Below are positions 33,589-37,975 of a stretch of DNA of 64,000 bases, piece after piece (within the stretch, counting starts at the first letter, position 1; each line of letters opens with the position of its first letter). Both the position numbers and the translations under genes were made by a program. A model generated the notes under the pieces. That model did no database searches and was not told the DNA's origin. It was given only the letters and a program-made list of their open reading frames with translations. Origin of the DNA: Vibrio hepatarius (lineage in GTDB: Bacteria > Pseudomonadota > Gammaproteobacteria > Enterobacterales > Vibrionaceae); the NCBI RefSeq assembly GCF_011806575.1, contig NZ_JAATOO010000025.1, positions 1 to 64,000 on the forward strand, given 5' to 3'.

Positions 33589-34068
33589 ATGCTCTCTCCC
33601 TTAACTAAAGCAAATCTCTATTTAAAGTCGTTTGGCTTTTTCAAAGTTCCTTTAATTTGGATTTGCAGGCCTAAAATTCTCAAACTGGATCGCAACAGTG
33701 TTGAGATTAAGATCCCTCTAAAACGAAAAACTAAGAACCACTTAAACAGCATGTATTTTGGTGTGCTTGCGGTTGGCGCAGATGTGGCTGGTGGCTTTAT
33801 GGCAATGAGTAAAGCTCAGGAGCGTGGCGAGAAGGTTTCGCTTGCGTTTAAAGCAGTAGAGGGGCAGTTCCTAAAGCGCCCTGAGGCCGATGTGCATTTT
33901 GTATGCGATGACGGCCCGCTGATTGACAAGATGTTAGACGAAACCTTTGAGACCGGAGAAAGGGTTAATCAAGCGGTTAAAATTACCGCCATTTGCCCGT
34001 CTCTGCATGGTAACGAACCGATGGCGGAATTTATGCTTACTCTTTCACTGAAGAAAATGGGTGGCTGA
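33589..34068 (+). CDS. DUF4442 hotdog-fold protein, possible thioesterase
   Basis: A 159-residue protein with the DUF4442/PaaI-like pattern: IPLKRKTKNHLNSMYFGVLAVGADVAGG corresponds to the hotdog helix, where NHLNSMYFG replaces the usual active-site segment. Related proteins hydrolyse acyl-CoA; substrate unknown. The 3' end overlaps the convergent gene at 34037 by 32 bases. Confidence 0.7.
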   Translation: MLSPLTKANLYLKSFGFFKVPLIWICRPKILKLDRNSVEIKIPLKRKTKNHLNSMYFGVLAVGADVAGGFMAMSKAQERGEKVSLAFKAVEGQFLKRPEADVHFVCDDGPLIDKMLDETFETGERVNQAVKITAICPSLHGNEPMAEFMLTLSLKKMGG

Positions 34069-35422
34069 TGTCATCCACTTCGATTTGTTCAACCGCGACG
34101 ATCTTGCTTCGGTTTAGTACTATCTTCCAGCGATAGTATTTCGGATTACCGTCGTGGTTGTTCTCCTTCGCAATCAAGTTGATAAGGTGGCGCTTTTCCA
34201 CCGATTCTCGACTGACTTGACCGTTATTTAAGGTGTACACCTTATTTGACCCTTTATCCATCAAACGCATCAACGGGCGCATGCTGACGAGCAAAGACTC
34301 GCGTGTTTCCTCATAACCACTCATAAATTTTGAGGTCGACATTTCCACCGCAGAGCGATAGTGGAGAATGTTCTCTTCTCTCTGTACGACTCGTTTTTTA
34401 CGGATTAACTTAATTCTGTCCGGAAGTTTTTCCAGCGATTTATAGTCGAGCCATTCGAGTTTCTGTCCGACGGCTTTTTTTGTGGTTGGGTCCAAATAGA
34501 GCTTTCGCCACTTTGGCCGACCTTTTCGAAGCCAACGCCACATCACATCGCGCAAGTCGTCTTTGAAGATTTCACGCAGCGCATAGACGAAAGACATTAA
34601 AACGATAAACGAGACGGTAATTTCGCCCCAGTAGTCACGTGCCAGAATCGCGGTGATGGTTACGAACACCATGACGAAACCAGTCGCACTGCCTTTTACC
34701 ATACGTTTCATGTTTTTGCCGAGCGACTGCGTTTTCTCCTGTAGTACAACAGGGTGTTCAATCAAGCGGCGCAGTAGGCGCATCTTGTTGCTAAGCCGCG
34801 TTACGTCGTCACGTACACTTTCCGAGTTGTAGTTGTTGAGCTTACGATGCGCAGCTTCTTTCTCAACGATTGCTAACAGGCTTTCTTTAATCGATTTGTA
34901 TTCGCCTTCACGTGGCATATGGGCAACTAAAGACATCAATCGCTGGCCTGTATACCAAGAGAGATAATTATCGATGTTGGCGTAGTAGCGCTTTAAACTT
35001 TCTTCGTAAGGAATACCACGACGGAGCTTTTTAAGGATATCGAGTGCCAAGTTGATGACTTCATCGACTTCATCAATCGTCACGGATTCTTTGTTGTTTT
35101 CGTTGAGTTGGCTGATAGCTTTATCCAGCGCGATGACGTACTGGTAAGCGAACAAACTCAAACTTACTCGGTATTGGGTAGAGGAGAGTCGGCCGCGTTT
35201 TGCTAGGCGGCTGTGAACCAAAGGTAGAAGCGTTTTGTCACTGTAATAAGCCCGTTTCTGAACCAGAGATTCGTAGTAAAACTCACTCTCTTTCAGAACA
35301 TCTGCAGAAAGACCTAACTCACCGGGAATGAAAAAGTACAAGTCGACAGTCGATTTCTTGGTTGAAGCCATCGCGTGAGATACTTTTAAGGTGATGCCGT
35401 CCTGCTTATCAACGGTGATCAA
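34037..35422 (-). CDS. conserved membrane protein of unknown function
   Basis: I do not recognise the family. With the TTG at 35422 the product has 461 residues. It has a soluble N-terminal part rich in charged helices, two adjacent transmembrane segments (about residues 255-300: GFVMVFVTITAILA and the ITVSFIVLMSFVYAL stretch), then a basic cytoplasmic C-terminal half. TTG is preferred because AGGAGC (35434-35429) lies 6 bases upstream; the ATG at 35371 has no ribosome site and the longest frame runs to 35485 without one. Convergent 32-base overlap with the DUF4442 gene; divergent from cvfB. Confidence 0.7.
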   Translation of the reverse strand: MITVDKQDGITLKVSHAMASTKKSTVDLYFFIPGELGLSADVLKESEFYYESLVQKRAYYSDKTLLPLVHSRLAKRGRLSSTQYRVSLSLFAYQYVIALDKAISQLNENNKESVTIDEVDEVINLALDILKKLRRGIPYEESLKRYYANIDNYLSWYTGQRLMSLVAHMPREGEYKSIKESLLAIVEKEAAHRKLNNYNSESVRDDVTRLSNKMRLLRRLIEHPVVLQEKTQSLGKNMKRMVKGSATGFVMVFVTITAILARDYWGEITVSFIVLMSFVYALREIFKDDLRDVMWRWLRKGRPKWRKLYLDPTTKKAVGQKLEWLDYKSLEKLPDRIKLIRKKRVVQREENILHYRSAVEMSTSKFMSGYEETRESLLVSMRPLMRLMDKGSNKVYTLNNGQVSRESVEKRHLINLIAKENNHDGNPKYYRWKIVLNRSKIVAVEQIEVDDISHPFSSVKE

Positions 35423-35476
35423 TGAAAAGCTCCTAAAAAAGTGTGAATAACTGGCGAAAGCATAACAGAGATTCGT

Positions 35477-35482
35477 TATAAT
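35477..35482 (+). promoter_or_regulatory. -10 element of the cvfB promoter
   Basis: TATAAT lies 30 bases upstream of the cvfB ATG, predicting a start near 35489. No strong -35 hexamer is visible 17 bases upstream. Confidence 0.45.
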
Positions 35483-35511
35483 CACCGCAAATTTAACAAG
35501 AGACAGTTTAA

Positions 35512-36345
35512 ATGATTAAAGTTGGTCAGATTAACCACTTAGAAGTAGTGAAAAAGGCAGATTTCGGCGTGTTTTTGGATGCTGGCGATTACGGTAGCGT
35601 GTTGTTACCTAACCGTTTTGTTCCTGAAGGCACTGAGGTAGGTAACACTATTGATGCATTTTTATACTTCGATTCTGATAGCCAGCTGGTCGCTACAACT
35701 GAAACGCCAATCGCACAAGTCGGCGAGTGGGGTCTAATGAAAATTGAAGGTGTGAATAGCACCGGTGCATTCGCTAACTGGGGCATCAAAGGCAAAGACC
35801 TATTGATTCCGTTTAGCGAGCAGCGTGCGCGCTTCACTGCTGGACAAAACGTATTGGTTTACGTCTACACAGACAAAGCGTCTGGACGTATTGTCGGTAC
35901 AACAAAATTCAACAAACTGTTGGATAAAACACCTGCGAACTACACCCGCAACCAACAGGTTTCTTTGATTATTGCTGAGCGCAGTGACTTAGGTTACAAA
36001 GCGATTGTTGAAGGTCAGCACTGGGGAATGATCTTCAAATCAGACGTGTTCGGTAAACTGTTCATTGGTAAGAAGCTCAAAGGTTACATCAAGAGCGTTC
36101 GTGACGACGGCAAGATTGATTTGTCACTGCAAAAGGTAGGCGTGGCGAAAATGGACGATTTGAGCGAGTCGATCCTTGAACTGTTGGAAAAGAAAGGTGG
36201 TTTCTTGCCATTGAATGACAAATCAAGCCCAGAGGCGATCTTTGCTGCGTTTCGTACCAGTAAGGGGACGTTTAAGAAGTCCATTGGCGGTCTGTACAAA
36301 CAAGGTAAGATCGTAATTGACCAAGACGGCATTCGACTGGCTTAA
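35512..36345 (+). CDS. cvfB: S1-domain RNA-binding protein CvfB family
   Basis: A 277-residue protein with tandem S1-like OB folds and a C-terminal winged helix. Seen are KVGQINHLEVVKKADFGVFLDAG, a second repeat around GEWGLMKIEGVNSTGAFANWG, and GYIKSVRDDGKIDLSLQ in the third S1 unit. The last 60 residues (ILELLEKKGGFLPLNDKSSPEAI) form the winged-helix end. CvfB affects virulence in Staphylococcus aureus; in Vibrio its job is unknown. Confidence 0.88.
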   Translation: MIKVGQINHLEVVKKADFGVFLDAGDYGSVLLPNRFVPEGTEVGNTIDAFLYFDSDSQLVATTETPIAQVGEWGLMKIEGVNSTGAFANWGIKGKDLLIPFSEQRARFTAGQNVLVYVYTDKASGRIVGTTKFNKLLDKTPANYTRNQQVSLIIAERSDLGYKAIVEGQHWGMIFKSDVFGKLFIGKKLKGYIKSVRDDGKIDLSLQKVGVAKMDDLSESILELLEKKGGFLPLNDKSSPEAIFAAFRTSKGTFKKSIGGLYKQGKIVIDQDGIRLA

Positions 36346-36389
36346 CACTGCTCTATCTTTGTGTGGGTTAACCAAGCGTTAACTCACAC

Positions 36390-36412
36390 AAAAAAAGCCC
36401 AAAGCGTTGGGC
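36390..36412 (-). terminator. rho-independent terminator of the small RNA (and of rsmF)
   Basis: On the minus strand GCCCAA pairs with TTGGGC (36412-36397), followed by seven T (complement of 36396-36390). It would end the small RNA and any read-through from rsmF. Confidence 0.85.
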
Positions 36413-36480
36413 GCTCTGGGCATAGGGGAAAGGGCTCTAAAAGAGCCTGCGCTAATTGTGTGAGCCTTTGTATGCTCAGT
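36390..36480 (-). ncRNA. sdsR: putative SdsR (RyeB/SraC) family small RNA
   Basis: Predicted 91-nt RNA on the minus strand. It has a GGCTCT/AGAGCC hairpin (36433-36447), a single-stranded CTTTCCCC, and an intrinsic terminator GCCCAA-CGCT-TTGGGC with seven T (36390-36412). The stretch TTAGCGCAGGCTCT, then AGAGCC and TTTCCC, closely resembles enterobacterial SdsR as I remember it. Upstream is CTAGACTTAG (36494-36485), a good sigmaS -10 (CTATACTT), placing the start at 36480. In E. coli sdsR lies a short distance downstream of rsmF (yebU), and here it lies directly downstream of rsmF. SdsR is a sigmaS-controlled, Hfq/ProQ-bound regulator of outer-membrane and mismatch-repair genes. Confidence 0.75.
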
Positions 36481-36487
36481 CTTTCTA

Positions 36488-36494
36488 AGTCTAG
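36488..36494 (-). promoter_or_regulatory. sigmaS-like -10 element of the small RNA
   Basis: CTAGACT followed by TAG on the minus strand matches the sigmaS extended -10 (CTATACTTA) with one change. It ends 7 bases before the proposed RNA start at 36480. Confidence 0.55.
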
Positions 36495-36550
36495 TGCATA
36501 CGTTACAATTAGCCAGAGCGCCTCAGAATTTCATACTGGGCTACTACCGT

Positions 36551-37975
36551 TTAGAATAGGTTTTTATCTCTTACCAGCTCTCTTGGCAGACCATTCTTAA
36601 TACGATTGCCTACCCATTTGCCTAATCCAATAACGTCACCACTCAGTTTGACGATCACTTCACCTTTACCCGATTGACCTTCAGGACGCACATCTCGTCC
36701 CATAAACCACTCACGGGCATCGTCAACACTTAGTGAAGCAGAAATCGCTTCTTCACCCGTCGCCAATGCTGTTGCTACCTGATGTTGCCAGCGATAGCCA
36801 TTTTTGTGCGCTTCAGCAATTTTGATCCCCATGCGAGAAAAACGGAACTCGCCCAACATAGGTTCAAGCGCATTAGGGAATAACCACACATCTTTATCTC
36901 GTAGCCACACACTCGCATCGTTTGGTAGCGAAATAGACAGTGTTTGCTCCAGTTGTTTTGCCACGTCGGCCTGAACTTTATGGCTAGCTTTCTCAAAAGG
37001 GAACTTACCCAAACGCTTTTTCACTTGCGGCGCTGGTGCTGAACCCACTTTACGAATACGCGCAACGAAGAAACCCTCGCAATCATAAACTTGCGGGAAA
37101 ATATGTAAGAAGCCTTCTTCCGTCAGTGCTTTTTCTGCGCCAGGGAATAGGTCGACAAGGCTTTCGAATTCCACTGCATCGCCAAAGCTCTGTTTTAGGT
37201 GATGACAGACCTGCTGGTTTTCCTCGATGCTGAGAGTGCAAGTTGAGTACACCATGGTGCCGCCAATCTTAAGCGCATGAAATGCACTCTCTATCAGGTC
37301 CTTCTGCGTGTCAGAAATCGAGATAACCGATTCTTTGCTCCAGTTTTTCATCGCGTCCGCATCTTTGCGCACGGTTCCTTCGCCCGAACACGGCGCATCG
37401 ATCAATACCGCCTCAAACTGTTCAGGTAGCCAACCGCCAAACACACGACCGTCGTAATTACTCAGAGAAGCATTGCGCACGCCACAGCGCTCGATGTTTG
37501 CATGAAGCACTTTGACTCGGCTTGCAGAAAATTCATTCGCTACCAACACACCATGATTTTCCATTTTCGCCGCGATTTGCGTGGTCTTTGAACCCGGAGC
37601 CGCCGCCATATCGAGAACGCTGTCAAACTGGTCTTCTTCCGTATTGAACAGCGCAGAAACGGGCATCATCGAACTCGCTTCTTGGATATAGAACAAGCCT
37701 GACATGTGCTCGGCTGTATTTCCTAGAGGAACAATCGTTTCATCCGCCTCGATCCAGAAACCTTCTTCGCACCAAGGTACAGGGCTTAATTGCCAGCCTT
37801 TTTCTTGAGCACGTTGAACGAACTGTTCGACAGAAATCTTAAGCGTGTTGACGCGAATACTCTTTCTTAGCGGACGCTGACATGCGGCAACAAAGTCTTC
37901 CATGTTGAGTTGCTTGGGAAGGATTGCTGCGATTTCATCAAGGAAAGCCTGAGGCAAATAAACGTTAGAGTGCAA
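36551..37975 (-). CDS. rsmF: 16S rRNA (cytosine-1407-C5)-methyltransferase RsmF
   Basis: SAM-dependent RNA m5C methyltransferase of 474 residues, normal for RsmF. The Rossmann core shows DMAAAPGSKTTQIA (SAM site), VLIDAPCSGEGT (Cys in motif IV) and YSTCTLSIEENQ (catalytic Cys in motif VI). The C-terminal part carries the PUA-like domain seen in YebU. It lies downstream of letAB on the same strand, as in E. coli. Confidence 0.95.
   Translation of the reverse strand: MHSNVYLPQAFLDEIAAILPKQLNMEDFVAACQRPLRKSIRVNTLKISVEQFVQRAQEKGWQLSPVPWCEEGFWIEADETIVPLGNTAEHMSGLFYIQEASSMMPVSALFNTEEDQFDSVLDMAAAPGSKTTQIAAKMENHGVLVANEFSASRVKVLHANIERCGVRNASLSNYDGRVFGGWLPEQFEAVLIDAPCSGEGTVRKDADAMKNWSKESVISISDTQKDLIESAFHALKIGGTMVYSTCTLSIEENQQVCHHLKQSFGDAVEFESLVDLFPGAEKALTEEGFLHIFPQVYDCEGFFVARIRKVGSAPAPQVKKRLGKFPFEKASHKVQADVAKQLEQTLSISLPNDASVWLRDKDVWLFPNALEPMLGEFRFSRMGIKIAEAHKNGYRWQHQVATALATGEEAISASLSVDDAREWFMGRDVRPEGQSGKGEVIVKLSGDVIGLGKWVGNRIKNGLPRELVRDKNLF

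Follow-up and report, generated by a model that had tools for sequence, protein, structure and literature searches.

In the 64-kb window (the whole stretch of DNA that was analysed, 64,000 nucleotides from Vibrio hepatarius), the gene of the 16S rRNA methyltransferase RsmF and a cvfB-like gene converge on a gap, in which a candidate small RNA gene, sdsR, lies on the same strand as rsmF. The features of the locus are the following, in the direction of sdsR transcription:

36551-37975, minus strand: rsmF, 16S rRNA methyltransferase, upstream neighbour (Pfam PF01189, PF21150, PF17125, PF13636)
36525-36535, minus strand: upstream element TATGAAATTCT, whose inferred function is that of a possible UP element or regulator site
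36513-36522: promoter-side arm of a 10-nt inverted repeat, exact match to its partner at 36410-36419
36509-36516, minus strand: conserved -35-like element CTGGCTAA, with CTNG at fixed spacing
36505-36513: promoter-side arm of a 9-nt inverted repeat, exact match to its partner at 36451-36459
36494-36488, minus strand: sigmaS-type -10 motif CTAGACT, by sequence (the Vibrio consensus here is TGtACTA.ACTT)
36390-36482, minus strand: sdsR, inferred transcript of about 92 nt (Rfam RF00111, fold z-score)
36455-36442, minus strand: conserved core and presumed seed TTAGCGCAGGCTCT (sequence, Vibrio alignment)
36447-36433, minus strand: core hairpin GGCTCT-loop-AGAGCC (fold, consensus structure)
36431-36425, minus strand: single-stranded TTTCCCC linker (sequence), with columns nearly invariant in Vibrio
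36421-36397 and 36396-36390, minus strand: intrinsic terminator, a 10-pair stem and a T tail of seven T, also returned by the terminator scan
35512-36345, plus strand: cvfB-like S1 RNA-binding protein gene, convergent neighbour (Pfam PF13509, PF17783)

The start of sdsR, near 36482, is deduced from the spacing to the -10 motif and holds within about 2 nt. A strong hairpin occupies 36353-36397, between cvfB and sdsR (z -7.4 for 36354-36394), with a run of A's after it on the plus strand. On the other side of the cvfB-like gene, and divergent from it, an open frame of 482 aa (34037-35485, minus strand) has no Pfam match at E 0.001.

Family assignment and distribution

SdsR is a small regulatory RNA of gut bacteria, produced once growth stops. 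The original prediction was that the locus encodes its Vibrio homologue, and it proposed a covariance search against Rfam. This search was run: RF00111 (SdsR_RyeB) covers 36389-36476 of the minus strand over the full model (1-100), with 39.6 bits versus a gathering score of 38, a margin of just 1.6 bits. It is the sole RNA family of Rfam at gathering level in the window, and it has one match genome-wide at E 0.001. A model built from Vibrio sequences gives three additional weak matches in the same genome, the best of them with 23.4 bits. The fold of 36389-36487 lies 4.5 sd under shuffles (z -4.5), none of 200 shuffles being equally stable. The AGAGCC and TTTCCC sequences, the hairpin layout, the terminator and the sigmaS-like -10 that had been put forward as SdsR features are all located on the minus strand.

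Membership in the SdsR family rests on the Rfam score, the structure, the covariation and the promoter layout common with E. coli sdsR; together with the conservation of the sequence, these data bear out the predicted homology. We are confident that the minus-strand element is the orthologue of SdsR (RyeB) in Vibrio, an RNA that would be transcribed with sigmaS, bind Hfq and repress mRNAs. Its identity is known biology and no new kind of element, since RyeB is already listed for V. parahaemolyticus and Rfam recognises the present copy.

At the level of the genus, RF00111 has matches in 118 of 148 genomes (108 above the cut-off); the corresponding figures are 112 of 121 (106 above) for the family and 124 of 247 (114 above) for the order, in genome draws which overlap. 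The 30 of 148 genus genomes in which RF00111 is unmatched (ten identified by elimination) and 6 from the family draw make up 36 Rfam-negative genomes, 14 of which the Vibrio model matches at E up to 0.05. The strongest of the 14, G045 (59.4 bits), is the same as locus L204, itself within the alignment of the model; the next strongest, G043 (37.3 bits), has kept the linker and the terminator and has a divergent core. In ten stretches from Rfam-negative genomes, the core is missing behind rsmF in all ten, as judged by eye and by pattern. A terminator-like hairpin, recognised by eye, persists behind rsmF in four of these ten (L243-L246), which are possible remnants of a lost sdsR; either loss or strong divergence fits.

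Promoter and transcript

The sigmaS-type promoter resembles that of E. coli sdsR by sequence, with the same -35/-10 layout: at the same offset, the -35 element reads CTGGCTAA in the window and CTGGAAAA in E. coli K-12. With the -10 motif picked independently of the -35 region, 50 of 121 Vibrio loci have CTNG exactly at position -22 relative to the C of that motif; the runner-up offset has 6. A bonus for a -35-like motif in the choice of the -10 gives 51 of 119, which is a partly circular count. Both sets derive from 128 Vibrio loci, 7 (bonus-free rule) or 9 (bonus rule) being dropped for want of an acceptable -10. Among 41 loci beyond the genus, two of which belong to one genome, 25 have CTNG and a matching -10 somewhere in the upstream stretch, versus 0.5% of shuffles under a nearly identical rule. 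Further upstream, 20 of 121 Vibrio loci carry an exact copy of TATGAAATTCT 41 bases ahead of the -10, and one carries it at a different offset; a pattern scan finds this element together with the core in 14 Vibrio records.

The same genome carries the genes of RpoS (464.7 bits) and Hfq (104.1 bits). E. coli SdsR is described as RpoS-dependent in an excerpt of PMC10954441. Similarly, the excerpted text of PMC4014581 places Salmonella SdsR under sigmaS control, and a table of that paper gives values of 3 and 4823, taken here as those without and with rpoS. Since the promoter is laid out as that of E. coli sdsR, SdsR depends on RpoS in enterobacteria and rpoS is present, the Vibrio sdsR promoter likely uses sigmaS.

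The conservation of the RNA was examined in an alignment of 60 Vibrio sequences, each representing one cluster of similar cores. In the core, TTAGCGCAGGCTCT, 12 of 14 columns are at least 90% identical, and the core, the linker and the outer terminator pairs are close to invariant. Changes on both sides which keep the pair are seen in 10 of the 14 consensus pairs overall; the terminator stem supplies 8 of these 10, that is 8 of its own 9 consensus pairs. The core hairpin is almost unvarying in Vibrio, which says little for or against its pairing.

The inferred leader upstream of the core is 26 nt long in the window copy. Among the 121 Vibrio loci, inferred leaders of 5-10 nt are seen in 15, of 19-27 nt in 71 and of 35-111 nt in 34, the remaining locus having an implausible value of -1; restricting the set to the 86 loci whose -10 motifs score best gives 13, 46 and 27 for the same classes. 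Since the leader is not conserved, targets that pair with the 5' end of the enterobacterial RNA are not necessarily targets in Vibrio. In seven loci (L004, L012, L029, L049, L051, L063, L066) the best -10 is very near the core, and the primary transcript would start about 5-7 nt ahead of the seed.

Inverted repeats and alternative readings

The 10- and 9-base inverted repeats which the original prediction had noticed between the promoter side and the RNA body are present, base for base, at the coordinates listed above. Shuffling the 134-nt region 3000 times with dinucleotides preserved yields a 10 bp repeat with arms at least 30 apart in 0.5% of cases, a 9 bp repeat with the same spacing in 2.1%, and two separate repeats of at least 9 bp in none, for repeats that were spotted post hoc. 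The neighbourhood holds two more inverted repeats, and on the promoter side the arms share bases with the conserved -35 element. The repeats were rejected as a conserved structure: their register differs among relatives.

Pairing between a promoter and its own RNA was also compared across loci. In the 66 of 71 Vibrio loci used for the own-RNA shuffle and longest-complement tests, a perfect complement of at least 10 is found in two (the window and L021), at different places, versus 0.34% of mixed pairs. Against its own RNA, the -35 segment does better than shuffled segments (mean z -0.83, 66 loci; upstream control +0.16); for the window's own segment z is -1.65. The tests across species and between sister pairs use a -10 chosen with the bonus for a -35-like motif. 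Compared with the RNAs of other species, promoters pair slightly better with their own (mean residual -0.96 kcal/mol over 79 non-redundant loci, reached in 0 of 5000 permutations), and for the window promoter ten other RNAs among the 79 pair better than its own. By segment (76 loci), the own-pair signal is found in the -35 segment (z -3.4) and at the core hairpin (z -3.0), with z -0.1 at the terminator; the overlapping segment from -51 to -21 gives z -1.8 (p 0.042), non-overlapping segments give p of at least 0.12, and the direct-similarity control gives z +2.3. Of 58 sister pairs, 44 are informative and split 28 versus 16 (p 0.03 uncorrected, one of 18 tests); in the same pairs, a control segment further upstream paired with the whole RNA gives p 0.02.

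The weak species-specific complementarity of the promoter with the seed hairpin is an open lead, and the excess of own pairs could be explained by template switching between nearby inverted repeats, by selection or by chance. It seems very unlikely that the -35 region, which becomes the rsmF 3' UTR on read-through, co-evolves with the seed hairpin in such a way that read-through SdsR hides its seed while the RNA from the sigmaS promoter does not. A related proposal, that the inverted repeats form a functional fold of an rsmF-sdsR read-through RNA which masks the seed or upsets the terminator, would account for the rarity of two such repeats in shuffles and for the better pairing of the -35 segment with its own RNA than that of shuffled segments or with the RNAs of other species. 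It sits poorly with the variation of the register across species, and with a signal located at the core hairpin and not at the terminator, where the 10-nt repeat of the window has its partner. Moreover, the window promoter is beaten by ten foreign RNAs and stands at only z -1.65 against shuffles, the sister-pair test is weak (p 0.03 as one of 18 tests, next to p 0.02 for a control segment), and the -35 element itself forms part of the repeat. We regard such a fold as very unlikely.

Two other readings dispense with a minus-strand small RNA. The conserved sequence could be a mere terminator region shared by rsmF and cvfB, as its location between convergent genes and the hairpin surviving behind rsmF in the four core-less Vibrio genomes might suggest; but a terminator needs neither the unpaired core nor the -35/-10 promoter, which are conserved too, and the Rfam match spans the full model, so that this reading is extremely improbable. 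The functional RNA could also be a plus-strand antisense RNA such as SraC/RyeA (RF00101), the antisense partner of SdsR in enterobacteria, made for example by read-through from cvfB. Indeed, the SraC_RyeA model gives 29.8 bits on the plus strand, under its curated gathering threshold of 37, and the consensus scan finds no plus-strand terminator between cvfB and sdsR, so that the cvfB mRNA might run antisense into sdsR; the same scan places a weak 5-pair plus-strand terminator inside sdsR (36461-36478). However, a sub-threshold SraC match on the plus strand is what is expected of two families that overlap in antisense, and both the T tail and the promoter indicate the minus strand. There is hardly any chance that the plus-strand RNA is the functional one, and an SdsR transcribed from the minus strand is the reading retained below.

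Gene order, proposed role and known systems

Of 71 Vibrio loci, 69 have rsmF upstream of sdsR in the same orientation and 58 have the cvfB-like gene converging on it, many of the stretches being short. In loci of six other families (f2, f6, f10, f16, f17 and f21), rsmF lies 17-226 bp upstream on the same strand. RsmF was not found at the loci of families f7, f25 and f27 of the order, and at the f11 locus LetB alone was found, without RsmF. In E. coli K-12, 1.4 kb separate the end of rsmF from sdsR, with yebV, yebW and pphA in between. Most loci of family f19 have yebY upstream, as in E. coli; locus L105 of this family is an exception, with rsmF upstream on the same strand. Given these six families and L105, the Vibrio gene order may be older than that of E. 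coli. The adjacency to rsmF, initially taken as a point of agreement with enterobacterial SdsR, holds within Vibrio but is not the E. coli arrangement: the letB-rsmF region is common to both, and the strand and the immediate neighbours differ.

By analogy with enterobacterial SdsR, from which sigmaS dependence, Hfq binding and mRNA repression are extended to Vibrio, sigmaS RNA polymerase would make SdsR from its own promoter as growth slows. Transcription would stop at the strong intrinsic terminator, giving an RNA of about 92 nt with a U tail that would load Hfq; the unpaired UUAGCGCA, the adjoining hairpin and the C-rich linker would then base-pair with target mRNAs, in most cases repressing them. 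In a target scan of mutS, tolC and zapG homologues, mutS and one tolC copy have no start codon upstream of the match. The other candidates (tolC, tolC and zapG), with starts guessed and accessibility ignored, rank 1, 7 and 11 of 47 when leader and core are used together; with the core alone they rank 19, 8 and 16, and with the linker 19, 23 and 28. These ranks support no target assignment.

Literature searches, mostly at the level of listings, returned no study of SdsR function in Vibrio. In excerpts of two V. cholerae papers, mention of SdsR is confined to reference lists. An excerpt of PMC6299092 gives a list of sRNAs, SdsR among them, and states that none had been reported in V. fischeri. 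RyeB svpa1713.1 appears among the entries for V. parahaemolyticus in PMC6601013; it belongs to the same genus and, by name, to the same family.

These results firmly place a well-studied stress RNA, SdsR, in Vibrio as well as in several other families of the order. The core, the hairpin, the terminator and the promoter are its constant parts, while the leader (from about 5 to more than 100 nt) and the gene neighbours are free to vary, which indicates the pairing region that should be tested first when looking for conserved targets.

The Vibrio RNA differs from the SdsR of E. coli and Salmonella in its 5' leader and in the sequence of its terminator stem, and the window is without a gathering-level match to SraC/RyeA. 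The E. coli gene lies beside yebY, on the opposite strand from rsmF, whereas Vibrio sdsR lies directly behind rsmF on the same strand. The Vibrio and enterobacterial RNAs (RF00111) are alike in the core UUAGCGCA, the GGCUC hairpin, the CCC linker and the terminator, and Vibrio sdsR shares with the E. coli gene the letB-rsmF neighbourhood and a promoter made of a CTNG -35 element and a CTAnnCT-type -10 at equal spacing.
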